In this document: positions 1,153-55,270 of the stretch, piece by piece | How the letters are laid out: each line of letters starts with the position of its first letter | Position numbering within the stretch: the stretch's first letter is position 1 | Source of the DNA: a virus | Virus record (IMG/VR): IMGVR_UViG_3300017788_003020 | Coordinates: 1 to 64,000 of that record | Length of the DNA stretch: 64,000 bases | Reading direction: 5' to 3' (one strand) | Program-made: the position numbers and the translations under genes | The notes under the pieces: generated by a model | What the model was told of the DNA's origin: nothing | Database searches by the model: none | Seen by the model: the letters and a program-made list of their open reading frames with translations, nothing else

Positions 1153-1821
1153 TTAAGCGGAAATATCGCCTAAAAAATTAAGGAGTTCGTCTAAGTATTC
1201 TGGGGAGGTAAGCTCGAACGCTTTTTTCTTGTTTATGTGGGTTAAACTTTTCTTGTCGCTAAATAAGAATAGAGGAATAGATTTTTCTTTACAATAAAGT
1301 ATTAAATCATAGAAGTCTAATTTATAGTCAGAATTATCTTTTAATTCTTTTAGCAAATCTAATATCTGCGGAGCTCCAATTTCATTTGGATTCTCGATAT
1401 AAATATAAGCTTCTATGATATATTCAGAAGCGTTTGGCACAAACTCATCTTTGCTGATTAATCTATCTTCTGCTTCTTTATTCGGCATAGTATGAATATA
1501 ACTATGCATATCTCTCCAATGATTAAATTTCTTGGACTTGTATCTTTGATTTAATTTCCAACCATCTATCTTAAAAACAACTGAACAGAATCGTGGATTA
1601 ACGAATTGTGGATAACCGCTTGTTGTTGTTCTTGCAAAAGACATTCTAAAAAGATAATCAGAAGACATAGCTTCCATATCATCTTGAGCCCAAGCTAAAT
1701 TAAATCTATCGCTTTTGAAGATTTGTATTGCTTTTTCTAATGTAGTTACATGGTAAAGAATTTCTGAAAACCCTTCATTTATAGATTCTTTCCAATTAGG
1801 GAATGTCTTTATGTAATTCAT
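1153..1821 (-). CDS. ART-fold-like phage protein with capsid-targeting-like N-terminus
   Basis: 222 residues. It begins MNYIKTFPNWKESINEG, which fits the leader shared by many proteins in this window and contains an I-N-E site like those cut by T4-type prohead proteases. After it comes ILYHVTTLEKAIQIFKS and, about 35 residues on, FRMSFARTTTSGY, followed by a KEAEDRLIS segment. This H-Y..., S-F-x-R, E order resembles the ADP-ribosyltransferase / RNA 2'-phosphotransferase fold as seen in many phage proteins of unknown substrate. I infer a packaged and injected protein, perhaps an ADP-ribosyltransferase as T4 Alt is, but catalysis is not shown and the fold call is by pattern only. Confidence 0.55.
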   Translation of the reverse strand: MNYIKTFPNWKESINEGFSEILYHVTTLEKAIQIFKSDRFNLAWAQDDMEAMSSDYLFRMSFARTTTSGYPQFVNPRFCSVVFKIDGWKLNQRYKSKKFNHWRDMHSYIHTMPNKEAEDRLISKDEFVPNASEYIIEAYIYIENPNEIGAPQILDLLKELKDNSDYKLDFYDLILYCKEKSIPLFLFSDKKSLTHINKKKAFELTSPEYLDELLNFLGDISA

Positions 1822-1917
1822 GTTGTTTTTAATTTTACATCATTATATATCTTTTTTAGTAGAAATTCTAAACAAATAATAGAAATTCAACTATAAATAA
1901 AAAATAAAAGAGTTACT

Positions 1918-2148
1918 ATGAATAGTCAGAAGACTAATGACAAAATGCAATTAGATATTTCTAATGCGAGCGATTTACTTTGTTCAAGCTGTGGGCATAA
2001 CTTATTCCAACCTGTTCTTATGTTCAAGAAAGTTTCAGCAATAATTTCTCCTACTGGGGAAGAAATGCTTATACCGATAGAAACTTGCGTTTGCGTAAAG
2101 TGTGGTAATATGAATGACGAATTTAATCCTGAAAAAAGAATGCCTTAA
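1918..2148 (+). CDS. Small zinc-ribbon protein
   Basis: 76 residues with two CxxC knuckles, CSSCGH near residue 22 and CVKCGN near residue 59, separated by about 35 residues; this spacing fits a zinc ribbon. The middle (EEMLIPIETCVCVKCG) is typical of short phage zinc-ribbon proteins, some of which act in transcription or as structural adaptors. It stands alone between a minus-strand gene and the metK promoter region. The specific role is unknown. Confidence 0.65.
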   Translation: MNSQKTNDKMQLDISNASDLLCSSCGHNLFQPVLMFKKVSAIISPTGEEMLIPIETCVCVKCGNMNDEFNPEKRMP

Positions 2149-2272
2149 AAGATTTTGGACTAAATTGTAAAATTAAGCCTAATTTACTAAGAATCTTCTG
2201 TCTATTTTTGAATATATCGTTTATATTTGAAGAAAGAAGATTAAAAGAAAGTTAGGTTTTTTTATTTTTTTC

Positions 2273-2303
2273 TTGCGTTTAGTCCGCTTTTCTCTTATAT
2301 TCG
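2273..2303 (+). promoter_or_regulatory. Bacteroidota-type promoter for metK
   Basis: TTG at 2273-2275, 20 nt, then TATATTCG at 2296-2303, one base off the TAnnTTTG -7 consensus. It lies about 80 nt before the metK start. A second TATATTTG at 2222-2229 lacks a well placed upstream TTG. Confidence 0.55.
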
Positions 2304-2385
2304 TAAAGATTATTATTTGATTTGAACTATGTTATCGGAATTTTAGTGTTCAATTTTATTTTTTAACAACCATTTAGGAGGCCTT

Positions 2386-3600
2386 ATGAAAAAAGGAAAT
2401 TACATCTGGACAAGCGAATATGTTTCTCCAGGCCACCCCGACAAAATAGCAGACCAAATATCAGATGCTATTTTAGACTTGTATCTAAAACATGACAAAG
2501 GTGCAAAAGTAGCATGCGAAACCTTGGTAAAGGGAAATGATGTATACATCGCAGGTGAAATTTCATCAGTAGTTACACTTTTTGAATCATCGCTCGAAGA
2601 GAAAATTCGACAAACTATATGTGATATAGGGTATGATGATAATCATTTGAAGTTTAACGGAAAAACATGTTCTATACATTTTAATATTTCTCAACAATCA
2701 AGAGAAATTTCAAATGCTGTTACCCGTGCTAACAAAATAACTGCGGGTGACCAAGGAATTATGTTTGGATATGCTACAAGAGAAACTCCAAACTTTATGC
2801 CTCTACCGATTTATCTCGCAAAGTCTTTTATAACAGAAGCTTATGATAATATGAATACGAAGTATAAGTTTAGACCTGATATGAAAAGTCAGGTTTCACT
2901 TGAATATAAAGATGGTATCCCTTCTTCTATTCATTCGGTAGTATTTTCAACTTGTCACGAAGAACTACTCCAACTTCCACAGTTAAGAGAATTATTCCAT
3001 GATGAATTGATGCCAAGTGTATTAAAAACACTACCTCCTGAAATTCAAGCTCTTTTTAATGATAATACTACCTTTTATATCAATCCAGCAGGTAAATGGA
3101 ATATTGGAGGCCCTGCCTCAGATTGTGGATTGACTGGGCGTAAAATTGTCGTGGACCAATACGGAGCAGACTGCGAAATAGGAGGAGGAGCATTTTCTGG
3201 AAAAGACCCAAGTAAAGTTGATAGAAGCGGAGCTTATATGGCTCGCCATATAGCCCTAAAAACGCTACAATCGAACCCAGAGGCTCAAAAAATCAAAGTT
3301 CAACTATCATATGCCATTGGGTATGAATATCCCGTATCATACAGAATTTTTGACCCAACTACTCAGAAGGAATATGATTTAGTCGGCTTTAGTCTTGATG
3401 ATTTGAAACCAAAGGGTATAATTCAAAAACTTGGATTAGACTCTCCAATTTACCTCAAAACCGCAAAATTCGGTCATTTTGGTATCCCTTCCTTTACTGA
3501 AGATGGAACCGCTTATTTCAAGTGGGAAGATTTCCAGCCAAGTTCTTCTAATTCTCAGATATATACTGAAAAAGAAGAACTTTCAAATGCGCCATATTAA
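2386..3600 (+). CDS. metK: S-adenosylmethionine synthetase
   Basis: 404 residues, close to the usual length of bacterial MetK. It would make S-adenosylmethionine from methionine and ATP. Visible signatures are SPGHPDKIADQISDAI near residue 14 (ATP/methionine binding), AGDQGIMFGYA near residue 120, GGPASDCGLTGRKIVVDQYG near 245 and the glycine-rich loop GGGAFSGKDPSKVDRS near 265. The second block has SDCGLTG where most family members have GDAGLTG. The start has a strong Shine-Dalgarno (TAGGAGG, 4-5 nt spacer), unusual in this window. Its product would feed the several SAM-dependent methyltransferases encoded elsewhere here (21585, 27423, 55256, 55869). Probably catalytically intact. Confidence 0.95.
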   Translation: MKKGNYIWTSEYVSPGHPDKIADQISDAILDLYLKHDKGAKVACETLVKGNDVYIAGEISSVVTLFESSLEEKIRQTICDIGYDDNHLKFNGKTCSIHFNISQQSREISNAVTRANKITAGDQGIMFGYATRETPNFMPLPIYLAKSFITEAYDNMNTKYKFRPDMKSQVSLEYKDGIPSSIHSVVFSTCHEELLQLPQLRELFHDELMPSVLKTLPPEIQALFNDNTTFYINPAGKWNIGGPASDCGLTGRKIVVDQYGADCEIGGGAFSGKDPSKVDRSGAYMARHIALKTLQSNPEAQKIKVQLSYAIGYEYPVSYRIFDPTTQKEYDLVGFSLDDLKPKGIIQKLGLDSPIYLKTAKFGHFGIPSFTEDGTAYFKWEDFQPSSSNSQIYTEKEELSNAPY

Positions 3601-4123
3601 ACTATACGAAGAATTTTCAGAATACAGCCCTGACGGTGTAACATTGTCGGGGCGTATTCCTGTTTATCATTTTACAGATTATGATATGGGAGAATATGCC
3701 GTATTAGACCCGAATGAAACTGTAAACAAAAGAAATTTCTGGTCTAATAATGATTACAAACGTTCAGATTTCCCAAGAGTATTTTATTTTACAGATATTA
3801 AAAACGTAGAAACTGCAATTAAAAATTCAAGCAAGTATCTTTATAGGGGATTTGTAAAGGGAGAAAGGATACTTCATTTGAAAAATACAATAGATGCATA
3901 TAATATAGATAAGAATAGCTTAAAGGAACAAAACATTAAAGCATATGAATCTATTCATAATTTTATGGTAGGTTTAGCTCTTAATTTTGATGTTTTGTTT
4001 AGAGATGTAAGTCTCAATTTCGATGGGATTTACTATGATGTAAGAGTTCCTATTATCAATCTATTCATCCCTCTTGAAGTAGAAAATATAGGTAAGGATA
4101 TAGACGCAAAATCTGTTGCATAA
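3587..4123 (+). CDS. ART-fold-like protein with capsid-targeting-like N-terminus
   Basis: 178 residues when started at the ATG at 3587, which overlaps the metK stop by 14 nt; the open frame extends upstream, but this start yields MRHIKLYEEFSEYSPDG, matching the leader shared by other proteins here. The body has PVYHFTDYDMGEY near residue 22 and FPRVFYFTD near residue 60, a YHFT...FYFTD arrangement like other ART-fold-like phage proteins. It sits between metK and an endolysin in the same direction. Function unknown; a packaged protein is inferred from the leader. Confidence 0.6.
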   Translation: MRHIKLYEEFSEYSPDGVTLSGRIPVYHFTDYDMGEYAVLDPNETVNKRNFWSNNDYKRSDFPRVFYFTDIKNVETAIKNSSKYLYRGFVKGERILHLKNTIDAYNIDKNSLKEQNIKAYESIHNFMVGLALNFDVLFRDVSLNFDGIYYDVRVPIINLFIPLEVENIGKDIDAKSVA

Positions 4124-4162
4124 ATCTGCACCAGAAAAAGCATAAAAATAAAAAAATATAAT

Positions 4163-4930: not shown

Positions 4931-4954
4931 GATGAATCTAACCAATAAAAACAA

Positions 4955-4979
4955 AAGCACCCTTTGAGGTGCTTTTTTT
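4955..4979 (+). terminator. Intrinsic terminator after endolysin gene
   Basis: AAGCACC, a 6-nt loop and GGTGCTT followed by a T run. It lies between the convergent endolysin and ankyrin genes. Confidence 0.85.
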
Positions 4980-4997
4980 ATTTATATTGTGTTATTT

Positions 4998-5531: not shown

Positions 5532-5587
5532 TATTTTTTTAATTATTTGAATATAGATGTAAGAATCTACAAAACCCACAGAAATAA

Positions 5588-5616: not shown

Positions 5617-7086
5617 TTATCGTATGTTGATAGATTCTATAACTAAATCTGATGTGTGCATTCCATTATGTTTATACACAGAAATAGAATAAGATTGAGC
5701 TTTGTTTATTTCAAATTCGAATGACATTGTGGTTCTACCACTCTTTGTTGTTTTTCTACAACAACCACCATCACATCCTTCTTCTTTCATTTGATGGTCT
5801 GAACCGAAGAATGTCATGAATCCGCCAAATGAGGGTATACTTGGGTGAGGGATAATTCCTTTTGGTAAGTTTGCATACACTTCATATACTCCTCTTGGTT
5901 TCTTTGTAAAAGAAACTGTTACTCTACATAAGACCTTTTTTTGACTTTTGTTTAGAGTTTGTTGGGGCATATCAATAGTAAAGTCTGTTCTTTTTCCAGA
6001 TACACTAATGTTAACTTTTTTTGAAATCCCAATAGAAGTTATCGCTGATAGTATTTGATTTTCTTTTTTTGATTTTACCTTTGTATCATCAAAATCGTAA
6101 TCTAAATCATAGATGATGCCTATTATTTGTTCTGGGGTGTAAACGACCTTTTTTCCATGCTCATCAAAGAACACATAGTCCCATGGAACTGATTTTAATT
6201 CTTCAAGCGTGATTAATTTTCCATTTTCTGAATTTGTCCATTGTTGCCAAATTCTATCAATATTTGAATGATGTGTCCAGAAAACAGGGTCAAATCCAGC
6301 AGTTCTAACTGAGCCCATAAGTCCATCTGGGGTTATAGTTCCTGTAATTGGATTGTTAAATCTTTTTTCTGTTGTATCATTTCCATGTCCAACATAATCA
6401 TGTATAGCTCCATGAGGAGCGGCATCTATAACATTACTAAACATATCAAATCGTGTATATGACATTAGTTTTGTTAAATCAAGTGAGCGTTCCACTTCGC
6501 CTTGCATTGGGAATCCTAAATTCAAACTATCAAATCTACATGCTTCATAAAGAGAAGAAGCCGTTGTTCTGAATGCAGGATGTAAAGATTTATCCTTAGT
6601 GGAGTTATTTGTATATGCCCAATAAGGAAGTGCAAATTCAGGATAGCCAGATAGTTTCCTGATTATTTTCTCGAAGTGATAGATATACAATCTATGCCAT
6701 ACTAAAAAATGAATTTTCTCTTTACTGCTTGGAGAGTGAGTACAATTATCCCAAGCTATTTTTTTATCAGTAAATGTATGATATGATTCGCAAAGAGGAT
6801 TATTTGAAATTGAATCTGGAACCCAGTGGATGGCCGATTGATAATACCAACTTAAAGGATTATCACATGGCATTTTCCGCATTATTTCCATTGCTTTCAT
6901 CATAGCATCAACATCTTTTTTAGCTTCGATGCTATGTATATTTTTTCTAACATATCTTTTTTCTACTTGTGAGACTATATTAAAGACTGGAATAACACTA
7001 ATTACAATTGAACAAGCAACAAATATCAAAATTGTTGATATTGCAATTAGAAATATCTTTTCTTCAAATTTTTCAAATTTACTCAT
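5617..7086 (-). CDS. Membrane-anchored tyrosinase / polyphenol oxidase family protein
   Basis: 489 residues. A hydrophobic segment at residues 11-34 predicts an N-terminal membrane anchor or uncleaved signal. The type-3 copper centre of the tyrosinase family is recognisable: H87 (SAIHWVP), H117 or H126 and H131 (HFLVWHRLYIYHFEK) for CuA; H225 and H229 (HGAIHD, spaced HxxxH) and H272/H273 (FDPVFWTHHSNIDRIWQQW) for CuB. Family members oxidise phenols to quinones using O2. The C-terminal third, with GCDGGCCRK near residue 440, resembles the domain that follows the catalytic core in polyphenol oxidases. Catalysis outside the cytoplasmic membrane is inferred from the anchor. Such a gene is very unusual in a phage. 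Spacing between the CuA histidines is not standard, so activity is uncertain. Confidence 0.85.
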   Translation of the reverse strand: MSKFEKFEEKIFLIAISTILIFVACSIVISVIPVFNIVSQVEKRYVRKNIHSIEAKKDVDAMMKAMEIMRKMPCDNPLSWYYQSAIHWVPDSISNNPLCESYHTFTDKKIAWDNCTHSPSSKEKIHFLVWHRLYIYHFEKIIRKLSGYPEFALPYWAYTNNSTKDKSLHPAFRTTASSLYEACRFDSLNLGFPMQGEVERSLDLTKLMSYTRFDMFSNVIDAAPHGAIHDYVGHGNDTTEKRFNNPITGTITPDGLMGSVRTAGFDPVFWTHHSNIDRIWQQWTNSENGKLITLEELKSVPWDYVFFDEHGKKVVYTPEQIIGIIYDLDYDFDDTKVKSKKENQILSAITSIGISKKVNISVSGKRTDFTIDMPQQTLNKSQKKVLCRVTVSFTKKPRGVYEVYANLPKGIIPHPSIPSFGGFMTFFGSDHQMKEEGCDGGCCRKTTKSGRTTMSFEFEINKAQSYSISVYKHNGMHTSDLVIESINIR

Positions 7087-8553: not shown

Positions 8554-8562
8554 GATATATAA
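8554..8562 (+). promoter_or_regulatory. GATATATA element
   Basis: GATATATAA, 42 nt before the start of the ArdC-like gene. Confidence 0.4.
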
Positions 8563-8603: not shown

Positions 8604-9908
8604 ATGAAATACATCAAACTCTTTGAACAATGGGAATTGAATACTAAATCAAATTCACCTATTTATTTAATCGATGATTCTTCTAATAAAAAAGAAAGAA
8701 GCGTGGAGCAAATGGCATTACATGAAGCTCTTAAACTTAAAATAAACAAAGAGGCTAATGAATTGGTAGTTGTATCGGATTTAGAAGGAAGAGAAGGAAG
8801 TCAAGAAACATTTGCAAATAAAAATGTACTTAAAAATAGCGGTTTTAGATGGAATAAAAATAATTGGACTATAACAGCAGATAAATTTGAAGAAGCTAAA
8901 TCTGTGATAAGTCTTATAAATAAAGTCGATTATATTATTGGTTCTCTTGAAGAACTTGAAGAAATGGTTGAAAATGTAGAAGAGTCCGATAAGAAGAATA
9001 TATTAAAAGCAAGGTTATCTGCATTTATACTTGAATTGGCAAATGCAACAGATGAAACAGTGCTTTCTGAAAAAATCAGGAAATACTTAGACTTTTTCTC
9101 TAAATTCCATAATTATAGTTACAATAACAGAATTTTGATTTATATCCAAAGACCAGATGCAACAAGAGTCGCTTCATATGCGAAATGGAAAGAAAAAAGC
9201 AGACAAGTTAAAAAGGGCGCAAAGGGAATTAGTATATTCGTCCCCATAATTAAAAACAAAGAAGTATCAAAAGAAGATGATGATGCAATAAATGCCGTAG
9301 AGTTTGATGGAGATAATCAAGAAACCAAGGAAATGAAGAAGAGTTTAGTTGGTTATAGAATAGGAGTAGTATTTGATATATCAGATACAGAAGCCGTTGG
9401 GCCAGAAGGTGAAATTCCTGATGCGCCTCAATGGTGGGGCGAAAATACCCCATCTGAAACGGCGGATGAATTGTTCGGTTATGTTTCAGAGATGGCAAAG
9501 GATATGGGAATCAAAATAACAACCGAACAAGCTACAGGAGGGGAACGAGGTTATGCGGCGGGTGACCATATCAATATATCATCAGGAGTAGAGGGCGTTG
9601 GAAGATTATCAACAATGATTCATGAAGTTGCACATGAATTAATGCACTTTAGGAAAAACTCTATATTCTATCAAGGAGAAACGCTTGATTTAACAAAAGA
9701 ATTGATGGAGCTACAAGCAGAGAGTGTATCATATGTTGTATTGAAACATTATGATTTACCTGCAACTCACCATTCTACTTATTTGGCTTTGTGGAAAGCA
9801 AACAAAGATGTTATTGAAGCTAATTTAGCAGTTATTTCAAAAGCTTCTCAATTCATCATTACTAAAATCGATGAACAAGCTGAATTCGCTAAAGAAAAAT
9901 CCTATTAA
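8604..9908 (+). CDS. ArdC-like antirestriction protein with zincin domain and capsid-targeting-like N-terminus
   Basis: 434 residues, starting MKYIKLFEQWELNT, a clear copy of the shared leader. Residues ~150-215 (FHNYSYNNRILIYIQRPDAT...SYAKWKEKSRQVKKGAKG) match the N-terminal ssDNA-binding domain of ArdC-type antirestriction proteins, and residues ~338-349 (MIHEVAHELMHF) give the HExxH zinc site of the zincin domain that follows in that family, with a downstream ELMELQAES that could give the third ligand. A region near residue 70-95 (NSGFRWNKNNWTITADKFEEAKS) is extra. ArdC of plasmid pSa protects incoming DNA from host nucleases. With the leader, I infer that it is packaged and injected with phage DNA, comparable in logic to T4 internal protein I*. 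Confidence 0.8.
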   Translation: MKYIKLFEQWELNTKSNSPIYLIDDSSNKKERSVEQMALHEALKLKINKEANELVVVSDLEGREGSQETFANKNVLKNSGFRWNKNNWTITADKFEEAKSVISLINKVDYIIGSLEELEEMVENVEESDKKNILKARLSAFILELANATDETVLSEKIRKYLDFFSKFHNYSYNNRILIYIQRPDATRVASYAKWKEKSRQVKKGAKGISIFVPIIKNKEVSKEDDDAINAVEFDGDNQETKEMKKSLVGYRIGVVFDISDTEAVGPEGEIPDAPQWWGENTPSETADELFGYVSEMAKDMGIKITTEQATGGERGYAAGDHINISSGVEGVGRLSTMIHEVAHELMHFRKNSIFYQGETLDLTKELMELQAESVSYVVLKHYDLPATHHSTYLALWKANKDVIEANLAVISKASQFIITKIDEQAEFAKEKSY

Positions 9909-11291: not shown

Positions 11292-12248
11292 TTACCAATA
11301 TAATATCGTTGGAACCTTTCTACTTGTTGCAATTTTAATCTCACCATTCCTTACAAAAAATGTGCTATTACCACTATCCATACAAATCGCATTGATAGCT
11401 CCAGCCATTTTCATTTTTTCAGCTAATATTTTTATATTAGCCTTAGGAGTAACATAAGCTATAATATCGCCTTTTGCTGTTATTCCGATTCCAGTTCTCG
11501 GTCTCATTGCCATTTCAGAAGGCCCGCCATTTACATCGTGAATTGAACCGTTTTTTATAAGCAAATCACTTCCCGAAAATGCCTCCATTGGATACATAGC
11601 CCCTTCACCTCTTTCTACGATTTCAAGTTCTGGCTTTAAAATCATCATAGGCCAATGTCTAAATTGATTTAACTTTTCTCCTAAGTTTACACCGTTAGAA
11701 TAAAAATTACCAGTTGGTCTGTAATTTCTCTCATAATATGTTAAATTTATAAAATTCTTATAGCCTTTTTGTATCCATTCGGTTGCATTATGCGGTTTGA
11801 AATCAGAATTAAACCCCATTTGTATTGCGGTTGGGTCAATTATTTGTATAAAATCTTCACCGAAATCGGCAGATTTTGAGAGTTTTTCTACCCCTGGTTT
11901 TATTTCTTTAATTGTAGATTTTGTTTGTTCTTGGGGTTGCATAACGGGTATTATAATATCCAAGCCCATAGATTTTAAGGTTTTAGAATCTACAACTCCA
12001 TTTTGTTCTAACCCCTTTGATTTTTGAAAGTTTACAAGAGATGCTCTTGACTCTTCTCCAAATTTACCATCTATCGCTGGCTTCCCATTTGTTCTTATGG
12101 GGTTCATAAATGAATTTTTAACTAAAAAATCCTGAACTTTCATAATATCATCAAATGTAAATCCCATGTTATTATAAGATTCAGATTCGTTTATTGAAGA
12201 ATTTTCACTCCAAGATTCAAATAATAGTACATTTTGTGTGAATGGCAT
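11292..12248 (-). CDS. Peptidoglycan-binding domain plus NAGPA-like phosphodiester glycosidase, with capsid-targeting-like N-terminus
   Basis: 318 residues. The N-terminus, VLLFESWSENSSINESES, is a variant of the shared leader with an I-N-E site. Residues ~30-100 form a peptidoglycan-binding-type domain (FTFDDIMKVQDFL, DGKFGEESRASLVNFQKSKGL, GVVDSKTLKSMG). Residues ~150-318 match the phosphodiester glycosidase (NAGPA/DUF2233) domain: FINLTYYE, GPSEMAMRPRTGIGIT, INAICMDSGNSTFFV, which in homologues removes N-acetylglucosamine linked by a phosphodiester or acts on wall glycans. A role in getting past the cell envelope at entry or exit is inferred. The same domain pair is known in phage and bacterial wall proteins. 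Confidence 0.75.
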   Translation of the reverse strand: MPFTQNVLLFESWSENSSINESESYNNMGFTFDDIMKVQDFLVKNSFMNPIRTNGKPAIDGKFGEESRASLVNFQKSKGLEQNGVVDSKTLKSMGLDIIIPVMQPQEQTKSTIKEIKPGVEKLSKSADFGEDFIQIIDPTAIQMGFNSDFKPHNATEWIQKGYKNFINLTYYERNYRPTGNFYSNGVNLGEKLNQFRHWPMMILKPELEIVERGEGAMYPMEAFSGSDLLIKNGSIHDVNGGPSEMAMRPRTGIGITAKGDIIAYVTPKANIKILAEKMKMAGAINAICMDSGNSTFFVRNGEIKIATSRKVPTILYW

Positions 12249-12275: not shown

Positions 12276-12284
12276 CTATATATC
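12276..12284 (-). promoter_or_regulatory. GATATATA element
   Basis: GATATATAG on the minus strand, 27 nt before the start of the phosphodiester glycosidase gene. Confidence 0.45.
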
Positions 12285-14497: not shown

Positions 14498-14797
14498 TTA
14501 CATAATAGCAATACACTCAATTTTTTCTGTTCTTGTATTCCAAGTATCACCTATGTAACAATCTTCTAAAAAGTCACCTAATGTTTCTTCTGAATCCCAA
14601 TCTGTTTCATCTAAATCCCAATGTTGCTCAATATGGGTTTTATCTAATTTATAAGGCTTAGCGCTTCTTCCTGTTTTGTCTGTGACGGCGAAATACTTCT
14701 CTTCTCTTTTCATATTAATAGAGTTTGGATTACTAATTTGATTATTAAAATTTTCACCCAAAAAGTCTTGAATTTTTGTTTTTATAAATTTACTCAT
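14498..14797 (-). CDS. Hypothetical small acidic protein
   Basis: 99 residues starting MSKFIKTKIQDFLGENFNNQ, which weakly resembles the shared leader (K-T-K-I-Q-D-F-L-x-E). The rest is rich in Asp, Glu and Trp (HWDLDETDWDSEETLGDFLEDCYIGDTW). No family recognised. It overlaps the upstream gene by 8 nt on the same strand, so the two are probably translated together. Confidence 0.6.
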   Translation of the reverse strand: MSKFIKTKIQDFLGENFNNQISNPNSINMKREEKYFAVTDKTGRSAKPYKLDKTHIEQHWDLDETDWDSEETLGDFLEDCYIGDTWNTRTEKIECIAIM

Positions 14798-15086: not shown

Positions 15087-15668
15087 TTACCAATATCCTG
15101 GATAAGTTTTACCACCCCAAAGAGAAGCATAACGATTTGCTCTACATGCCCAATATCCAGCCTTTGTTTTATCTTTTTTCATTTTGCAATTATGTCTACT
15201 TGCAAATCTTTTTCTTGCTTCTGGGTCTGATACTTTTGCTTTAAGACCTCCGCTAACATCTCCAAAATGAACAACCATAATTCTACCAGTTTTAGGGTTT
15301 TTTACATAAACCTTATATTTTTTAGGGCCTGAACTACGCATAGGTTTATTTAATTCTACTTTTCTACCTGCATATTCAGCTTCATTTAATTCCGATTCAT
15401 CAAGTAAAGGCAAGTCAAGTGGAACTATCTCCCCGTCAAACTCCTCAAATTTCCCTAAGTCTGTATTCTCAAAAAGATAAGAATCGTTTTCATTTAATTC
15501 TATAAGTTCTCCTCTTTCAAATAATTCTCTCGATTCTTTTAAAAGTTCATAGTAAGATTCAGAACCTACTCTGAATATGTTGTCAGTTATAGATATATCA
15601 TTATCAATGTGATATTGTAAGTGTTCGGATATTGAACTATAATTTTCAAATAATTTGATATATTTCAT
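15087..15668 (-). CDS. Capsid-targeting-like leader protein with C-terminal His/Cys domain
   Basis: 193 residues starting MKYIKLFENYSSISEH, a clear shared-leader copy. The C-terminal half has KYKVYVKNPKTGRIMVVHFGD, then DPEARKRFASRHNCKMKKDKT and GYWACRANRY, a conserved module seen in many phage proteins with an R-H-N-C ... W-A-C arrangement that could bind zinc. The middle is acidic. Predicted to be a packaged or head-associated protein on the strength of the leader. A terminator and a GATATATA element both lie just upstream. Confidence 0.7.
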   Translation of the reverse strand: MKYIKLFENYSSISEHLQYHIDNDISITDNIFRVGSESYYELLKESRELFERGELIELNENDSYLFENTDLGKFEEFDGEIVPLDLPLLDESELNEAEYAGRKVELNKPMRSSGPKKYKVYVKNPKTGRIMVVHFGDVSGGLKAKVSDPEARKRFASRHNCKMKKDKTKAGYWACRANRYASLWGGKTYPGYW

Positions 15669-15688: not shown

Positions 15689-15697
15689 GTATATATC
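15689..15697 (-). promoter_or_regulatory. GATATATA element
   Basis: GATATATAC on the minus strand, 20 nt before the gene starting at 15668. Confidence 0.45.
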
Positions 15698-19316: not shown

Positions 19317-19325
19317 GATATATAG
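19317..19325 (+). promoter_or_regulatory. GATATATA element
   Basis: GATATATAG, 18 nt before the leader-bearing gene at 19344. Confidence 0.45.
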
Positions 19326-19343: not shown

Positions 19344-20045
19344 ATGAAATATATCAAAATCTATGAATCTTGGGTAAATGAAGCAGAAGCCACAAAATTT
19401 GATGTAAGTAAGCCACAAGCATATCCTATGTTAAAAATAACACAAGGAGAACTTTATACAGGAAATGAAGAAAACTTCAGAAAAACCTTGGCAAGTCTTT
19501 ATAGCAGAGGTATAGAAAAGAAAGAAGTCAGTGAGACTGACCCATATGGTGTTATTAATTTTTTTAATATAAAGATAAAGTCAATAGATTCTAAAAAAAA
19601 CTCAATGTCTTTTAAGTTCGCAAAAGCCCAACAAGATGTTTCTATAACAACTGAATTGAAAGTTACCGCTGGATTTACAAGCGTGATGAATGAAATGGGA
19701 TATGATATAAAGTCCGAGTCGGGTTTAGAACAAATAAAAAATGCTTTTTTAGTTTATCCCAAAGCAACTGATAAATCAAAAGTAATCACAAAATCTGAAG
19801 ATGGTTCTATAAAAGTATCCACAGAATCCGCAGTCATAGTAATTTTACCCAAAGAACCTTACGATAAAGAAGACTTAGCTATAAATTTAGATAGTTTATG
19901 TATAGCAAAAGGAGAAGCGAAAGATTGTGTTGTAGGTCAATCTTCTGCTTATATTGCTCTTGAATTCAAAATTCCAGGTGCATTATCTTCAACTCAATAT
20001 GGGGATGATAAATTCTTCACAAAGACTATATTCAAAAAAGCGTAA
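19344..20045 (+). CDS. Leader-bearing (capsid-targeting-like) protein of unknown function
   Basis: 233 residues starting MKYIKIYESWVNEAEATK, one of the best shared-leader copies, with a V-N-E site at residues 11-13 that a T4-type prohead protease might cut. The body (DPYGVINFFNIKIKSIDSKK, SMSFKFAKAQQDVSITTELK, VIVILPKEPYDKED) suggests a beta-rich domain, but no family is recognised. A packaged internal protein is inferred. Confidence 0.65.
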   Translation: MKYIKIYESWVNEAEATKFDVSKPQAYPMLKITQGELYTGNEENFRKTLASLYSRGIEKKEVSETDPYGVINFFNIKIKSIDSKKNSMSFKFAKAQQDVSITTELKVTAGFTSVMNEMGYDIKSESGLEQIKNAFLVYPKATDKSKVITKSEDGSIKVSTESAVIVILPKEPYDKEDLAINLDSLCIAKGEAKDCVVGQSSAYIALEFKIPGALSSTQYGDDKFFTKTIFKKA

Positions 20046-24467: not shown

Positions 24468-24476
24468 GATATATAG
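24468..24476 (+). promoter_or_regulatory. GATATATA element
   Basis: GATATATAG within TTTAGATATATAG, 35 nt before the leader-bearing gene at 24512. Confidence 0.45.
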
Positions 24477-24511: not shown

Positions 24512-24793
24512 ATGGGAAATGTTCTTAAATTCGAGGACTATGTTCTTAACGAAGCGAAGAAAACGGTATCTAAAGTAAATGTTAAAGAAGGAAAAATGCA
24601 TAAACTTTTGGGAGTTCCTTCTGGAGAAAAGATTGAAGACCATTACAAAACAGGTATGGAATTAGCAAAAGCTTTGGTTAAAGCTCTTAAAGGAGACCAG
24701 AAAAAAGCGGCTGGAATGCTTGCTTGGGCGGCTAATATCCAAAAGCGTGGAGATATTTTCGATAATGCTTTGGCCTCATTAAAAAAAATCTAA
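24512..24793 (+). CDS. Small basic leader-bearing protein
   Basis: 93 residues starting MGNVLKFEDYVLNEAKK, a shared-leader copy with an L-N-E site at residues 12-14. The rest, GVPSGEKIEDHYKTGMELAKALVKALKGDQKKAAGMLAWAANIQ, is helical and lysine-rich, as expected of a T4-type internal DNA-associated protein. It is 5 nt ahead of another leader-bearing gene, so the two likely form an operon of packaged proteins. Confidence 0.7.
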   Translation: MGNVLKFEDYVLNEAKKTVSKVNVKEGKMHKLLGVPSGEKIEDHYKTGMELAKALVKALKGDQKKAAGMLAWAANIQKRGDIFDNALASLKKI

Positions 24794-24798: not shown

Positions 24799-25689
24799 AT
24801 GTCTGTATATTCATTTGAACAATGGAATCTTAACGAAAAATCAGGTAAAAAGAAAGCTACGCCTGAAAAAAGCTTGATGGACACCATCTCAAATCTTATG
24901 CCTAATAAGCAACCCGCAGTTTCTACTGAGGTAGCGAGGAGATTTAAGTTTTTAGATTTTGAAGAAAAGGAAAAAGGCGCAAAGACTGTTGAACAAATGA
25001 AACTAATAAAGGATGTAGATTTCTTTTTGAAAACTTTCAAATACATAGAGTCTTTGAAAGTTTTAGTTAATCCAGAAGTAGCGAAACAAGGATTGAACTT
25101 TGAAAATCAAATTCCAAATTACGCATATGATTATGGTAATTTACCTGACCTTATAAACTTGCCCGTTGATTTGACGAAATATATTGTTCGCTTCTTTATG
25201 ACGGCGGGTTTATCTAAAAGCGGTGCAGTTGCGTTGGCTGCTAACTTTTGGAAAGAATCGAGATTCAATCCGCATCAAAATCAAATTGGGGGAGGACCTG
25301 GATTTGGTTTAGCACAATGGGGCAAAACGGATAGATGGAGTAGATTCGTTAACTCTTTCCTTTCGGTGTTTAGAAGCTCAGACCCAAAGTTCTCTTCTAT
25401 GAATAAAGAAGATTTAGATGCACAATTAAGTTATACGATATATGAACTAAAGACATTCTATAATGATGTATATTTAGAACTATTGAAGCCATATAGATTA
25501 GAGTCAAAGGTTATCTTGATTATGAAGAAATATGAAGTATGTAGAGATAGAGATAAACCAGAGGAACAAAGAGAAAGATTTGACATATCAAAGAACATAG
25601 CTGTTATTATAGCTTTTGACCATTGGATAGATATTATAGAGAAGTCTATTTTTGTTTTGAAAGATTTAGACTTAGGGAAATTCTATTAA
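24799..25689 (+). CDS. Phage tail-type lysozyme with capsid-targeting-like N-terminus
   Basis: 296 residues starting MSVYSFEQWNLNEKSGKK, a shared-leader copy with L-N-E. The catalytic part begins near residue 128: YIVRFFMTAGLSKSGAVALAANFWKESRFNPHQN, then GPGFGLAQWGKTDRWSRF, the hallmark of the phage tail lysozyme family; the Glu in WKESRF is the likely catalytic acid. The gp5-like hub protein at 46016 lacks a lysozyme domain, so this may supply the entry lysozyme in trans, or be ejected into the host. The ~120-residue N-terminal spacer is not assigned. Confidence 0.75.
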   Translation: MSVYSFEQWNLNEKSGKKKATPEKSLMDTISNLMPNKQPAVSTEVARRFKFLDFEEKEKGAKTVEQMKLIKDVDFFLKTFKYIESLKVLVNPEVAKQGLNFENQIPNYAYDYGNLPDLINLPVDLTKYIVRFFMTAGLSKSGAVALAANFWKESRFNPHQNQIGGGPGFGLAQWGKTDRWSRFVNSFLSVFRSSDPKFSSMNKEDLDAQLSYTIYELKTFYNDVYLELLKPYRLESKVILIMKKYEVCRDRDKPEEQRERFDISKNIAVIIAFDHWIDIIEKSIFVLKDLDLGKFY

Positions 25690-34889: not shown

Positions 34890-35279
34890 GGGGGTGTCAT
34901 TGGTTTCGATTGGCTTTTGACGCACTAAGAAGCAACCCGTGCTGATACTCGGTGGAGCACGATAATACAACTGAGTAAATCATAAGTGGCAATAATAGCA
35001 CACATATTTTCAATCAATATCCATTGGTTGGAAATACCCAGACACAATACGCAGTAGCGGCTTGAGTCCGAGTGATGTAATTTGTAGCTGTTCTCATTAT
35101 ATCACTCGTCGCCTATAACAGCATATACTATAAAGGGCTTTCACTTTATAGTGAATTTTTGAAAGCAAAAGAATTATCGGCTGTCCTTTGCCTAAATAAT
35201 TCTTACTATAAAAGGACTATGGTTGTAGTGGTCTGGTAACTTGATAGTCAAGACGGGGGTTCGAATCCCCCCACCTCCA
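34890..35279 (+). ncRNA. ssrA: tmRNA (SsrA RNA)
   Basis: A complete one-piece tmRNA of ~390 nt. The 5' end GGGGGUG pairs with CACCUCC at the 3' end to give the acceptor stem; the T arm reads GGGGGTTCGAATCCCCC; CCA is not encoded. Pseudoknot 1 is clear: CGUGCU/AGCACG plus ACUCGGU with ACUGAGU. Eleven nt after it a resume codon GGC would start a tag of 25 codons, beginning GNNSTH and ending TQTQYAVAA, then UGA. The YAVAA end is the classic ClpXP/ClpAP degron form. The tag is longer than the 8-15 residues usual in bacteria and includes an 8-bp hairpin (CAATCAAT/ATTGGTTG). The frame choice rests on the pseudoknot spacing and tag end. Trans-translation by this RNA would need SmpB, which I did not find here. 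Confidence 0.95.
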
Positions 35280-35311
35280 CAATTTTTTATTTTTATTTTA
35301 AGGTTAATGTT

Positions 35312-38060: not shown

Positions 38061-38087
38061 AAAAAGGAGGCATTTGCCTCCTTTTTT
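38061..38087. terminator. Bidirectional terminator
   Basis: AAAAAGGAGGCA, TT loop, TGCCTCCTTTTTT; between convergent genes. Confidence 0.85.
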
Positions 38088-38988
38088 ACTCGTAGCTTAC
38101 AATAGAACTGCTGAATTCTTCTGAAAAATAATGAAGTATAAATTCATACATAAAGTCATTAATATAGTGAAGTATATTCCACCCAATCGTAGATGCTGTT
38201 GTATCTGGTCTTTTTAGTTTCATTTGTAAAAACCCTCTTGCATTAGAAAGAACTTCGATATATTCTTCCATTCCAAATGCTGGATTTTCTTTAACTCCAT
38301 CGCTTGTTTGCTTTTTATATGCTTCTACGCATTCATCCTTTTGATTTACAATTTTAAGGATTTCTGATACAGTTACATAATCGGGTTCCATTCTTAGTAT
38401 TTCTCTTAATTGACCGCTTCTTGCCAACTTTCTTACATTTTCTGGGTTTTCTAATTTATATTTCTTCAAACTGGGGCTAAATGTCATGTTCCACTTACCA
38501 TATTGATTTAACATATTTATAAGTTTATCTATAAGTCCTCCAAGATATCCAGTTGAGTAATAACCTGCATTGACCGCTTGTTCTTGTTGCATTTGGATAT
38601 ACCATTCTTCGTTTCTATAATCTTTTGATGCTCCATCTGTCAAATAATCCATTTTTCCTTCTAAGTCTTCTTTACTTATATTTCTATCACTTGTATATTG
38701 GTCTATATTTGACCATAAAACATAAAACAACTCATTGGCTTTTATTTCATCTGTCCCATATTTTATGACAATATTATTGTTCATGGGGTCTCCTTGAAAT
38801 TCCTTACCGTAAACTATATTTTTGGCTACTCTCCACATTCTATCGTGAATGTAATCATATAAATCCTTGTAAGTTATGCTTCCAGCTTTCAAGTTCTTGT
38901 ATTGATATTTTTCGTTTAAGATGCTTTCTATCTCTGAAAAATTCAAACTTTCATTCACGAATTGCTCAAAATTTGCTATTCTTTTCAT
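38086..38988 (-). CDS. Leader-bearing (capsid-targeting-like) protein of unknown function
   Basis: 300 residues starting MKRIANFEQFVNESLNFSE, a strong copy of the shared leader with V-N-E at residues 11-13. The body is mostly helical (YKDLYDYIHDRMWRVAKNIVYG, AGYYSTGYLGGLIDKLINMLNQYGKW) and no domain is recognised. A packaged internal protein is inferred. A GATATATAG element sits 28 nt upstream. Confidence 0.65.
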   Translation of the reverse strand: MKRIANFEQFVNESLNFSEIESILNEKYQYKNLKAGSITYKDLYDYIHDRMWRVAKNIVYGKEFQGDPMNNNIVIKYGTDEIKANELFYVLWSNIDQYTSDRNISKEDLEGKMDYLTDGASKDYRNEEWYIQMQQEQAVNAGYYSTGYLGGLIDKLINMLNQYGKWNMTFSPSLKKYKLENPENVRKLARSGQLREILRMEPDYVTVSEILKIVNQKDECVEAYKKQTSDGVKENPAFGMEEYIEVLSNARGFLQMKLKRPDTTASTIGWNILHYINDFMYEFILHYFSEEFSSSIVSYE

Positions 38989-39016: not shown

Positions 39017-39025
39017 CTATATATC
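39017..39025 (-). promoter_or_regulatory. GATATATA element
   Basis: GATATATAG on the minus strand, 28 nt before the leader-bearing gene starting at 38988. Confidence 0.45.
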
Positions 39026-41805: not shown

Positions 41806-42369
41806 ATGCCTGCTAAATCTAAAGCCCAAGGTCGTTTAATGAGAATAGCCCTTGCATATAAAAAAGGTCATTTGAAAGCAAGTGAAGTCTCAGATTCGGC
41901 TAAAGAAATAGCTAACTCCATGACAATAAAGGAGTTAGAAAAATATGCAACAACACCTGAAAAGGGTTTGCCTATGCATGTAGATGAAGAGTTTGCAACT
42001 CTTGATGCTACTCCTGGTATGGGGGATGTAACTCCACCAACAGCAACTACTCCTGGAAGTGGTGATGTATTTAACGCATACGGTTTATACACACAAGGAT
42101 TTTTGAAAAAGACTAAAAAGGATAGGAAAGCTAAAAAAACAGACCCTATGAAACATTATCATCCTGAAAAAGGAATAGTTAATTTTCAACCTCATGGTAG
42201 TATTGTATATTTTGAAGACTTCATTAAAAATTTGAGAACAACAAGTTCCAATTCTTTTAATGACCATAATGATGATTATCAAGGTTTCATAAATACAGAT
42301 TCACAATATACAGGCCCAGAATCTGGGGATGGTGGATATGATGGTGGATATGATGGTGCTGGTGATTAA
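41806..42369 (+). CDS. DUF3008-like protein with glycine-rich tail
   Basis: 187 residues. MPAKSKAQGRLMRIALAYKKGHL, then SDSAKEIANSMTIKELEKYA and TPEKGLPMHV, matches the short MPAKSK...family (DUF3008) found in phages. A Gly/Asp-rich tail (GGYDGGYDGAGD) ends it. The internal segment GSIVYFEDFIKNLRT partly resembles the leader found on packaged proteins but is not N-terminal. Function unknown; placed among structural genes. Confidence 0.65.
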   Translation: MPAKSKAQGRLMRIALAYKKGHLKASEVSDSAKEIANSMTIKELEKYATTPEKGLPMHVDEEFATLDATPGMGDVTPPTATTPGSGDVFNAYGLYTQGFLKKTKKDRKAKKTDPMKHYHPEKGIVNFQPHGSIVYFEDFIKNLRTTSSNSFNDHNDDYQGFINTDSQYTGPESGDGGYDGGYDGAGD

Positions 42370-42416: not shown

Positions 42417-45400
42417 ATGGTATACGCTGCTGATAAATATCTAAGAACGTTTTTAGGTTTAAATGGTATAAGGAATCCTGCTCTTTTGGCTAATACAGAG
42501 TATGAAGACCCTACATATCCTATGTTTCATGTCCAATTTAAATTTGGGCCAGCATTGCCAGATGCTAAACATCCAGACTATGTCGCAAATAGGTTGCTTG
42601 ATTCTGGTAGTAATCCAGAGTCCGCCATAAGTTACTTAAAAAGTATATCTGAACCCGAAAGAGCAGAAAGTTTAAGTAAGTTTATAGATGCTCTAAAAAC
42701 TATAAGCGAAAAGACACCATATTATTTTCAAGGTATATCTGGAATAGATAATCTTATGAAAATGCATTATCCTGTTGATTCAAAAACTCCATTTGCAGAA
42801 CAACAGGATATTCTTCTTTCGGTAAAAACTCTTGAAAGTATTGACTTTAGAATTTTAGCGCTAAAGGACTTGTATAATAAATCAGTTTTCGATAGAAAGT
42901 ATAGAAGATGGGTGTTACCTGTAAATCTCAGAAGATTCAGAATGAGAATTATGATAGGCGAGTATCGCCAGATGGCTATTACAGAAGAAAATTTTTCTGT
43001 AAATCCAAGGCAACTTATGGACACATTAAGAGATGTTGATATATTTAATGCTTCTAATGTTGGTGGTAAATTATTAGGAAGAGTAAGTGAAGGAAGTTTA
43101 AGTTTTATAAAAAGATTACAGTGGTGGGATAATCATTTTTCATGTCTTGTATTTGATTGTCATGATTGTGAGTTTGAAATGAACTCAGCCCCTGAAGCTT
43201 TTTCTAATTTATCACATGGAGATAGTCTAAGGAATCCTTTAACTAACTCATTTGGAATTAGAGTAGGTAGAGTTGTAAATACGAATGTGTATAGTTTGTT
43301 GAAATTTGTTTTAACTGATGATATTTTATACCAATCGTTTTTGAGAGCTCAGGCTCAATCAACAACTAAAAATAGTACAGCGGATGATAAGAAGTATGGT
43401 AATATAATGAAAAAATTAACTAAAGAAGATACAGAAGAAAAGGCAGCTATACTTTCAAAACAATATCAACAAATATTCAAGCCTGTATATGATTCTTGGG
43501 GTAGCTATCAGAATCTTTTAAGAGAGAAGGGTGATAATAAAAGGGTTATACTGGAAAATAGGGATTTTGAAAGTGCTGTAAGTGCAGATTTAAATGAAGG
43601 ATTAGGTGCTTTAGGTATAGGAGATGCTTTAGGTAATGGAACAAATTTCGGACCTGGTTTGGGTTCAGTTGGTAATTTTGTTGGCGATACTCTTTCAGGT
43701 TTAGCACAAGAAGCATTAGGAATGGCGACCGAACAGGTTACTAAAAATGTATTTGATAATGCTCTTTATAATTCTATTGCAGGAACTGCTCTTGGTGTAT
43801 TAAATGGAGACTTAAATGCGGCGGCAAGAAACTTTACAAACCCAGCATTAGCGGCTCAATTGGGTATAAATTTAGAATTTTCAAATAATCCTGTCCCTCC
43901 AAATCTAAGAGATGGAGTTCCATCTAAATTGGATTTGACTCCTCCAAATGTTCAGCGTTCTCTTACGGACGTTAGAGCTAATTTAACGGGAGAGGGAGCT
44001 GACCCAAGATTTCAAGCTATTGGTAGACCTGGTCAGAGTTTATTCTCTAACCCAGAAAGCATAGAAAAAGCTATGCAACCTCAAACCATAGAATTTACTG
44101 AAGTTAGAAAAGAAACTAAGATGTCTACTACTAATGTAGAATTTACTGAAGTAAAAAAAGAAACTCGATTAAATCCACAGAAAGAAACTCTCGTTGGAGC
44201 TACTCCAAAGAAAACCTTTGATTCTACAAATGCAGACTTGCAGGGCGCTCAGGCTCTTAAAGACCTAACACCATCTAATGCAGATTTAACTGGTGCTCAG
44301 CCTATAAGAGACTTGAATCCTACAAATGCAGACTTGCAGGGCGCTCAGGCTCTTAAAGACCTAACGCCATCTAATGCAGATTTAACTGGTGCTCAACCTA
44401 TACGAGACTTGAACCCTACAAATGCAGATTTAGAAGGAGCTCAACCTATACGAGACTTGAACCCTACAAATGCAGATTTAGAAGGAGCTCAGCCACTTAA
44501 AGACTTAACGCCATCTAATGCAGATTTACAAGGCGCGCGACCTCTCAAAGACTTAACGCCATCTAATGCAGATTTAACTGGTGCTGAACCTATTAAAGAC
44601 TTAACGCCATCTAATGCAGATTTAACTGGTGCTGAACCTATTAAGGACTTAAAGCCATCTAATGCAGATTTGCAGGGCGCACAACCTCTCAAAGACTTAA
44701 CGCCATCTAATGCAGATTTAGAGGGGGCTCAACCTATAAGAGACTTAAATCCTATAAATGCAGATTTGATTGGTTCTCAACCTCTCAAAGACTTAACGCC
44801 ATCTAATGCAGATTTACAGGGAGCACAACCTATACGAGACCTAACTCCATCTAATGCAGATTTACAGGGCGCACAGGCAATAAAAGACCTAACTCCATCT
44901 AATGCAGATTTGCAGGGGGCGGAGGCAATAAAAGACTTAACGCCATCTAATGTAGGCCTACAAGGCATACAGCCCATGAGAGATTTGAATACTACAAATG
45001 CAGACTTAACTGGCGCTGAGGCAATAAGAGACCTAACACCGTCTAATGCAGATTTACAAGGTACACAACCTATACGAGACCTAACACCATCTAATGCAGA
45101 TTTACAAGGAGCTTCTGCTCAAAGAGCATTTACGGAAACAAACGCTGATTTGAATGGAGCCTCTCCATCAATGAGATTCGATAATGATAATGTAAAATTG
45201 GAGGGTAAACTTTCTTCTGACAAATTCAATTCTTCAAATGTAGGTTTTACTGGTTCTTCTACAAAAACTGTAAATAATTTAGGAGTAGAAAATCTTGAAG
45301 GTAAAGATGCTCTAAGAGAGTTTACAGAAACAAATGTTGGTGACATGCAATCTAACACAAAAGAATATTCTTCATTGGGAACTGAAGCACTTGTAGGCTC

Positions 45401-45983
45401 TGAACCCATAAGAAATATGAATATGTCAAATGCTGACTTAGATATAAACAGCTCTAATTCTAAATTACAGACAAATGTTGAATTATCTGGATATGAACCA
45501 ACTCAGCCAATATTGGGAGTAGAAAATTTAACAGGAGCCAAACCTTTAACTAATTTAGTTATGAGAAATTCAGAATTAGTCGGAGCGGATAATAATTCAG
45601 GCGCTACAAGAATTGTGAATGTTGATTTAGAAGGTGCTCAAAAGCAAACTTCCATGATGAATAAAGATGAATTAAAGGGGGCGGGTAAATTAACATCTAT
45701 GAATCAAAAAAATGTTAACTTAAAACAAGCTGCTCCAAGTAATACTATGGTTCCAAAAAATACAGAATTAATTGGTTTTAATCCGTCAGTTACAATGACT
45801 CAAAATGTAGATTTTATAACTATGTCTTCAAGTGAAACATTGGAAATACAAACTGTTGAACTTGAAGGGAAACCTAAAACTGTGGATGTTTCTATGACAA
45901 ATGTAGGTTTAAGTGGGTCTTCAAAAGAAGAGACTTTTCAGATTAAAAATATCTTAGGAATACAACCTCCAAAGACTGATTAA
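42417..45983 (+). CDS. Large virion protein with 16-residue NADLxGA tandem repeats
   Basis: 1188 residues. The N-terminal ~450 residues look globular (FGPALPDAKHPDYVANRLL, VFDRKYRRWVLPVNLRRFRMRIMIGEYR) and resemble T4-like tail/baseplate proteins. From ~residue 600 to ~915 about 20 copies of a 16-residue unit (NADLQGAQPIRDLTPS and variants) run in register, with a 48-bp DNA period; weaker copies continue to the C-terminus. The A-D-L-x-G core recalls pentapeptide repeats, but the 16-residue spacing differs. The repeats probably form an elongated beta structure such as a fibre or tape. The internal DNA identity suggests recent expansion or recombination. Confidence 0.65.
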   Translation: MVYAADKYLRTFLGLNGIRNPALLANTEYEDPTYPMFHVQFKFGPALPDAKHPDYVANRLLDSGSNPESAISYLKSISEPERAESLSKFIDALKTISEKTPYYFQGISGIDNLMKMHYPVDSKTPFAEQQDILLSVKTLESIDFRILALKDLYNKSVFDRKYRRWVLPVNLRRFRMRIMIGEYRQMAITEENFSVNPRQLMDTLRDVDIFNASNVGGKLLGRVSEGSLSFIKRLQWWDNHFSCLVFDCHDCEFEMNSAPEAFSNLSHGDSLRNPLTNSFGIRVGRVVNTNVYSLLKFVLTDDILYQSFLRAQAQSTTKNSTADDKKYGNIMKKLTKEDTEEKAAILSKQYQQIFKPVYDSWGSYQNLLREKGDNKRVILENRDFESAVSADLNEGLGALGIGDALGNGTNFGPGLGSVGNFVGDTLSGLAQEALGMATEQVTKNVFDNALYNSIAGTALGVLNGDLNAAARNFTNPALAAQLGINLEFSNNPVPPNLRDGVPSKLDLTPPNVQRSLTDVRANLTGEGADPRFQAIGRPGQSLFSNPESIEKAMQPQTIEFTEVRKETKMSTTNVEFTEVKKETRLNPQKETLVGATPKKTFDSTNADLQGAQALKDLTPSNADLTGAQPIRDLNPTNADLQGAQALKDLTPSNADLTGAQPIRDLNPTNADLEGAQPIRDLNPTNADLEGAQPLKDLTPSNADLQGARPLKDLTPSNADLTGAEPIKDLTPSNADLTGAEPIKDLKPSNADLQGAQPLKDLTPSNADLEGAQPIRDLNPINADLIGSQPLKDLTPSNADLQGAQPIRDLTPSNADLQGAQAIKDLTPSNADLQGAEAIKDLTPSNVGLQGIQPMRDLNTTNADLTGAEAIRDLTPSNADLQGTQPIRDLTPSNADLQGASAQRAFTETNADLNGASPSMRFDNDNVKLEGKLSSDKFNSSNVGFTGSSTKTVNNLGVENLEGKDALREFTETNVGDMQSNTKEYSSLGTEALVGSEPIRNMNMSNADLDINSSNSKLQTNVELSGYEPTQPILGVENLTGAKPLTNLVMRNSELVGADNNSGATRIVNVDLEGAQKQTSMMNKDELKGAGKLTSMNQKNVNLKQAAPSNTMVPKNTELIGFNPSVTMTQNVDFITMSSSETLEIQTVELEGKPKTVDVSMTNVGLSGSSKEETFQIKNILGIQPPKTD
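44222..45160 (+). repeat. Coding tandem repeat, 48-bp period
   Basis: About twenty imperfect 48-bp units encoding NADLxGA-x-x-x-x-DLxPS. Neighbouring units are often nearly identical at the DNA level, e.g. the units at 44571 and 44619. Confidence 0.9.
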
Positions 45984-51389: not shown

Positions 51390-51422
51390 AAAAGTAGAAC
51401 TTAAATGTTCTCCTTTTTATTT

Positions 51423-52196: not shown

Positions 52197-52232
52197 GAGG
52201 GTATATCCTAACTTTATTACTGGAATTTATAG

Positions 52233-52937: not shown

Positions 52938-52968
52938 ATTGTAACCTTTCTTTAACTATTATATAAAA

Positions 52969-54939: not shown

Positions 54940-54964
54940 TTTGATTAAATATAATATTACCCCT

Positions 54965-54973
54965 CTATATATC
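54965..54973 (-). promoter_or_regulatory. GATATATA element
   Basis: GATATATAG on the minus strand, 25 nt before the structural gene starting at 54939. Confidence 0.45.
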
Positions 54974-55059
54974 TTATATTTTTAAGTGTTTGTATATTCC
55001 ACAGTAAAAACTTCAGGTTAGAACTTTAACATGGTGTAAGCAAAATATGCTAAATTTTA

Positions 55060-55068
55060 GATATATAA
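55060..55068 (+). promoter_or_regulatory. GATATATA element
   Basis: GATATATAA within TTTTAGATATATAA, 22 nt before the leader-bearing gene at 55091. Confidence 0.45.
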
Positions 55069-55090
55069 ATCTCAAATTAATAGAATAACT

Positions 55091-55270
55091 ATGAATTATC
55101 TTGAATTATTCGAAAAATGGTCTGAAAAATACAAGAAGAGCATAAATTGCAAAAACCCCAAGGGATTTTCTCAAAGGGCTCACTGTGCAGGAAGGAAAAA
55201 GAAAGCTCGTAAAAAATTGAAGAATTATGAGTCTTGGGTTATAGAAAATTATTATCTAAAGCAAACTTGA
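55091..55270 (+). CDS. Small basic leader-bearing protein with GFSQRAHC motif
   Basis: 59 residues starting MNYLELFEKWSEKYKKS, a shared-leader copy. Then comes NPKGFSQRAHCAGRKKKARK, a short motif that recurs in phage proteins, here between C20 and C32 with H31 beside it, so zinc binding is possible. Strongly basic, as expected of a small DNA-associated internal protein. It overlaps the convergent Dam-like gene by 15 nt. Confidence 0.6.
   Translation: MNYLELFEKWSEKYKKSINCKNPKGFSQRAHCAGRKKKARKKLKNYESWVIENYYLKQT

Follow-up and report, generated by a model that had tools for sequence, protein, structure and literature searches.

Why do ten proteins of one virus, with bodies that differ from one another, begin with the same short N-terminal leader? 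The question was raised by a window of 64 kb taken out of the 79,624-base linear virus record IMGVR_UViG_3300017788_003020. A first-pass annotation of this window had proposed that the leader is a capsid targeting sequence (CTS) like that of the internal proteins of phage T4, cut by a gp21-type prohead protease. When the proteins were re-read from the DNA, all ten leaders (10/10) were present at the places named (Table 1). The start given for one of them was wrong: in the protein at 12248 (minus strand) the leader is real, but the true ATG lies six codons upstream of the quoted V, which is residue 7 and is encoded by GTA, not a start codon. The protein thus begins with ATG (MPFTQNVLLFESWSENSSINE; MPFTQNVLLFESW). 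The consensus of the leader was M-K-x-[IVL]-x-x-[FY]-E-x-[FWY]-[IVL]-N-E/[AS], where the slash, here and below, marks the cut site. Its form, the enrichment of the cut site, the head operons of related phages, the sharing of a promoter-like motif (GATATATA) with structural genes, and the association of such leaders with virion proteins in the cyanophage S-CREM2 all argue for capsid targeting. The shared N-terminus therefore very probably works like the T4 CTS, and the reading of it as a propeptide for capsid targeting, akin to those of the T4 internal proteins but new in sequence and with an unusually large and diverse set of cargo, is well supported.

The T4 internal proteins IPII and IPIII begin MKTYQEFIAE/A, and IPI begins MKTFKEF. 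Targeting of IPIII is governed by residues 4 and 7 and its processing by residues 8 and 10, and Asp at position 10 blocks cutting while targeting is retained (PMC9026906). Packaging of a foreign protein by the IPIII leader has been shown experimentally, and a review of Black's work proposes the CTS as the route of various proteins into T4-like capsids (PMC9026906). In the window, a hydrophobic residue at position 4 and F or Y at position 7 were found in register in 8 of the 10 leaders. L/I-x-E was present in five leaders and V-x-E in two more (7/10 with [ILV]xE). The cut site was then placed relative to the conserved Phe in 174 leader proteins: [ILV][NSTDAK]E occurred at Phe+6 in 27%, versus 0.7% at +30 to +60, a 39-fold enrichment, and the residue following [ILV]xE at Phe+6 was most often A or S.

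Enrichment of the leader over chance was borne out by a profile of 10 columns that was trained solely on 44 leaders of four other phages and then applied to the whole record. At a threshold of ≥10 bits the profile recovered 7 of 82 N-termini but none of 294 internal methionines and none of 17,869 internal 20-mers. At ≥6 bits it recovered 13 of 82 N-termini, all ten claimed leaders among them, versus 27 of the 17,869 internal 20-mers. The exact eight-residue start MKYIKLFE was found in at least 116 stretches in IMG/VR, compared with one for the scrambled control MKFEIYKL and 13 for an unrelated seven-residue start. Across bacterial and archaeal genomes totaling 257 Gb, MKYIKLFE occurred in only 19 stretches, two of them on the same 254-kb contig. 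Given the profile statistics, the scrambled control and the small number of stretches in cellular genomes, the leader is a genuine tag and mostly a phage feature. The contig in question (CAIWBA010000291.1, labeled 'uncultured Bacteroidetes bacterium') carries at least three MKYIKLFE starts and is probably a misbinned jumbo phage.

Other phages were compared for leaders of this form. No clear leader of this kind was found in the 100 kb examined of Tenacibaculum phage PTm1, and PAU gp70, annotated as 'internal capsid protein', begins without one. The cultured T4-like Flavobacterium phage immuto (NC_055915, 80001-130000) has other shared N-termini near gp20/21/23, namely MKKSQLRxIIKE and FDLKKFLVENKLTxNSxxLxE, which are possibly capsid leaders specific to that group.

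Behind the leader the bodies do differ, as had been claimed: when a sample of 209 leader proteins from related phages was trimmed by 14 N-terminal residues, BLASTP sorted the bodies into 137 clusters. Among their families were ankyrin, leucine-rich repeats (LRR), RimK, PPK2, tRNA nucleotidyltransferase, polynucleotide kinase-phosphatase, NUDIX, M15 peptidase, GNAT and oxygenase; these lists contain a few false inclusions, with low-scoring entries such as a ribonucleotide reductase. Within the window, Pfam matches confirmed three functional labels of the first-pass annotation, ArdC-like for 8604+ (ArdcN, E = 3e-11), phosphodiester glycosidase for 12248- (NAGPA, E = 2e-15) and lysozyme for 24799+ (Phage_lysozyme2, E = 1e-17). 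A fourth label, 'ART-like' for 1821-, was left unconfirmed: this protein had no match in Pfam or PDB, and its single-sequence model was unusable (pLDDT 34). Residues conserved in its phage relatives (H, S, R and ExEDR) do no more than leave an ART identity possible. The protein at 15668- has relatives in the cultured phages immuto and Melnitz. An LxEGGAxGHxxHPFxD leader protein with no PHROG match recurs in several leader phages and is a candidate conserved cargo protein.

ArdC homologues from plasmids and phages align to the 8604+ protein only from residue ≥130, so that the leader is an addition to the ArdC body. The homologue of the 1821- protein in Vibrio phage K566 carries its own, different leader (MKKFNEFANELAE/A), that is, the same body with another tag. 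At the DNA level the leader was written in 63 spellings among 108 leaders, which indicates selection on the peptide rather than on the DNA.

The T4 late promoter is TATAAATA, and a motif resembling it, GATATATA, occurred 22 times in the window versus 5.7 expected. In the record it was located 27-50 nt upstream of all nine leader genes that stand first in an operon (leader versus other genes, P = 9e-5). The motif was also found upstream of the genes for the head-tail adaptor Ad2 (41028), a baseplate protein (46016), a head-closure protein (52969), a large structural protein (62346) and the endolysin (10656), and was not found upstream of replication genes in the record. A similar trend was seen in three other leader phages, and in LR756500 as well (P = 0.005). 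From this arrangement the leader genes are predicted to be expressed late, alongside the structural genes.

The cutting enzyme postulated by the first-pass annotation was identified in related phages. The relative LR756500.1 (462 kb), which has about 21 proteins in common with the record and about 40 leader genes, encodes an S77 (gp21-type) protease (292 bits) adjoining a gp23-like capsid protein (679 bits), in one operon with a portal gene. In several large leader contigs the head operon had the order portal, small leader protein, S77 protease with a long tail, and gp23-like capsid protein; a second leader protein sometimes preceded the capsid gene, and another often followed it. In leader phages the S77 protease forms the N-terminal part of a protein of 570-800 aa, the long tail of which is probably a fused scaffold, and in control contigs it is a stand-alone protein of about 217 aa. 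Protease residues were invariant in 12 sequences, the DHP and SSRAAG motifs included. The capsid proteins of leader phages themselves contain LINE/A and LNE/S-like sites in the N-terminal region. Of the 27 large leader contigs, 14 encoded the S77 protease. In the protease-negative leader contigs no capsid protein of this kind was found at full length, so these contigs are probably incomplete or divergent.

Evidence from virions came from cyanophages. For S-CREM2, which is one of the T4-like cyanophages, a virion proteome of 52 proteins has been published (PMC10665884). The authors of that study left contamination open for the virion enzymes and do not report the leader in the passages covered here (PMC10665884). 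The motif [FYLIVM]xxF[ILVMF]xE was sought in the first 24 residues of S-CREM2 proteins. Such a T4-style leader was found in 6 of 50 virion open reading frames (ORFs) and in none of 175 other genes (P = 9e-5); one match, ORF122, looks spurious, and P was about 5e-4 by hand without it. The leaders were those of a SAM hydrolase (MKDFDSFLEE), an APH/ChoK-like kinase (MKRFDAFLTE), a cytidylyltransferase (MKNFSSFLTE/A), ORF13 (MKDLHSFLTE) and ORF136 (MQTFSMFFSE), and the Cas9-like virion protein ORF12 has RFASFMAE/A just beyond the 24 residues. An NMNAT annotated as a virion protein in phage S-SCSM1 begins MKSFLQFLKE/A, and its relatives begin MKLFNQFFKE/A (S-CRM01) and MKSFSQFLTE (P-SSM2). The presence of the leader on S-CREM2 virion enzymes favors packaging over contamination and offers an explanation for enzymes that the authors could not separate from it.

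Taken as a capsid-targeting system, these elements would act in the following order. Late in infection, GATATATA promoters would drive synthesis of the leader proteins along with that of the structural proteins, and the leader would dock onto the core of the prohead scaffold. The S77 prohead protease, probably fused to scaffold, would cleave after [ILV]xE in most leader proteins. Once freed, the proteins would stay packaged beside the DNA, enter the next host cell with it and may there act ahead of phage gene expression, for example in anti-restriction or on the cell wall. Host delivery and an effector role are likely, with less assurance than capsid targeting itself.

Several observations weigh against this interpretation. 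Three of the ten window leaders lack any [ILV]xE, and about two thirds of the sampled leaders lack the canonical site at Phe+6; such leaders could be targeted yet uncut, as in the T4 Asp10 variant. Pfam and tailored profiles found no protease, portal or capsid gene in the 79.6-kb record, a fragment that lacks head genes. Only half of the large leader contigs yielded the protease, and so did 2 of 5 control contigs of comparable size. Since size-matched controls were few, this co-occurrence is weak when taken alone, and it was dropped as proof; the smaller contigs (2/23 leader versus 1/8 control) were uninformative. The phages that provide the proteomic support have a T4-style leader, not this exact form, and in S-SCSM1 the leader gene SSCSM1_30 lacks annotation as a virion protein.

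The explanation closest to the preferred one retains prohead targeting and omits delivery: the proteins would serve mainly in assembly, as parts of the core or scaffold destined for digestion or expulsion. Small acidic leader proteins do occupy exactly the gp67/68 position in the head operons of relatives, and gp21 digests T4 core proteins (PMC9026906). Most leader genes, however, lie far from head operons and encode catalytic or defense-related domains, and enzymes with such leaders persist in mature virions of S-CREM2. A role mainly in assembly was considered unlikely.

Less likely again is a sorting tag that leads elsewhere than to the capsid: to the membrane, to a phage nucleus or compartment, or to an adaptor or chaperone of the host. 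It would accommodate bodies able to work in the infected cell (PPK2, tRNA nucleotidyltransferase, NUDIX) and the many leaders without a cut site. A cytoplasmic tag would not, however, be expected to place leader genes within head operons adjoining the protease or to share GATATATA with structural genes, and neither [ILV]xE at a fixed place nor the leader-virion link of S-CREM2 is expected from it.

Two further explanations were judged very improbable. The leader could be an expression element without peptide function, such as a translation signal or an AT-rich stretch at the start that was copied along with a promoter; GATATATA lies close enough upstream for promoter and start to move together, but structural genes with GATATATA have no leader, conservation is in residues (I4, F7, [ILV]NE) rather than bases, and an explanation by expression alone was rejected on the free codon variation. 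Residual homology among paralogues with bodies diverged beyond recognition, for which expansions such as a seven-member cluster of leader proteins in LR756500 might speak, is contradicted by bodies of known but unrelated folds (ArdC, NAGPA, lysozyme, ankyrin, LRR, RimK, PPK2), by the late start of the ArdC alignments and by the exchanged leader of K566.

Proteins that phages inject besides DNA have so far mostly been discovered one by one. If the leader is a loading tag, the injected repertoire could be listed from the genome, including candidate anti-defense proteins of unknown fold. A tentative extension, on which we place somewhat less than even weight, is that in large T4-related phages one portable tag loads dozens of unrelated enzymes per head, some through internal or C-terminal tags, making the virion a delivery package for changeable effectors. 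If true, virion cargo would be comparable to the effector repertoire of a secretion system and readable from sequence.

Table 1. Leaders, leader-like copies and GATATATA motifs, with scores in bits (for the N-terminal leaders, from the ten-column profile).
Feature	Position	Strand	Associated protein or gene	Score (bits)
Leader MNYIKTFPNWKESINE	1774..1821	-	Protein 1153-1821, 222 aa, no assigned function	6.2
Leader MRHIKLYEEFSE	3587..3622	+	Protein 3587-4123, 178 aa	20.4
Leader MKYIKLFEQWELN	8604..8642	+	ArdC-like protein 8604-9908; without [ILV]xE exit	26.5
Leader MPFTQNVLLFESWSENSSINE	12186..12248	-	PG-binding and phosphodiester glycosidase protein 11292-12248	11.7
Leader MKYIKLFENYSSISE	15624..15668	-	Protein 15087-15668, phrog_7595 C-terminal domain	17.9
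Leader MKYIKIYESWVNE	19344..19382	+	Protein 19344-20045, 233 aa	20.1
Leader MGNVLKFEDYVLNE	24512..24553	+	Protein 24512-24793, 93 aa	7.0
Leader MSVYSFEQWNLNE	24799..24837	+	Phage lysozyme protein 24799-25689, second gene behind 24512	10.5
Leader MKRIANFEQFVNE	38950..38988	-	Protein 38086-38988, 300 aa	17.7
Leader MNYLELFEKWSE	55091..55126	+	Basic 59-aa protein 55091-55270	7.4
Weak extra leader candidate MSKFIKTKIQDFLGE (start MSKFIKTKIQDFLGEN)	14753..14797	-	Protein 14498-14797	0.9
Second, C-terminal leader-like copy KLKNYESWVIENYYLKQT	55211..55267	+	Within 59-aa protein 55091-55270	18.1
Internal leader-like sequence SIVYFEDFIKNL, by eye, unscored	42199..42234	+	SKAQxRLM-type protein 41806-42369	
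Motif GATATATA	1844..1851	-	30 nt upstream of 1821-	
Motif GATATATA	3558..3565	+	29 nt upstream of 3587+	
Motif GATATATA	8554..8561	+	Before 8604+	
Motif GATATATA	12277..12284	-	36 nt upstream of 12248-	
Motif GATATATA	15690..15697	-	Before 15668-	
Motif GATATATA	19317..19324	+	27 nt upstream of 19344+	
Motif GATATATA	24468..24475	+	44 nt upstream of 24512; operon 24512+ / 24799+	
Motif GATATATA	39018..39025	-	37 nt upstream of 38988-	
Motif GATATATA	55060..55067	+	31 nt upstream of 55091+	

Besides the leader-like sequences inside or at the end of proteins of the window (Table 1), internal copies are present in other phages. In phage G012 a domain similar to the SKAQxRLM-type protein bears an internal leader, and S-SCSM1 has an SKAQ-type protein among its annotated virion proteins. 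The C-terminus of T4 Alt is processed too (PMC9026906). Elsewhere in the record, a protein of 1188 aa with about 25 copies of the LKDLTPSNADLQGA repeat is encoded in the tail gene region (42417-45983), a tmRNA with the tag GNNSTHIFNQYPLVGNTQTQYAVAA lies at 34890-35280, and the protein at 5617-7086, judged by eye, may be tyrosinase-like with a membrane segment at its N-terminus.

Among known systems the closest is the T4 CTS of IPI, IPII, IPIII and Alt, cut by gp21. Like it, the present leader is short and N-terminal, is hydrophobic at positions 4 and 7, has Glu at the cut and precedes unrelated bodies, and the relatives have a gp21-type (S77) protease and the head-operon context. Unlike T4, the exit lies three residues later ([IVL]NE at 11-13 versus IAE at 8-10), the leader of these phages contains a conserved FE-x-F block, and about 10 to 40 such proteins are present per phage rather than a handful, with internal and C-terminal copies. 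The cyanophages S-CREM2, S-SCSM1 and S-CRM01 likewise have unrelated enzymes (SAM hydrolase, kinase, NMNAT/cytidylyltransferase, Cas9-like nuclease) behind leaders of the form MKxFxxFLxE/, and in S-CREM2 and S-SCSM1 these enzymes were detected in virions by mass spectrometry; their leader is closer to that of T4 (MKNFSSFLTE) than is the leader of this phage. As compared from the literature alone, the ejection proteins of phiKZ-like phages and SPN3US and the DarA and Hdf proteins of phage P1 are similarly loaded into the head, trimmed by a prohead protease and brought into the host. The P1 proteins counter restriction, as the ArdC-like protein might, while the propeptides and capsid clade of phiKZ-like phages, SPN3US and P1 differ from those of the phages described here.

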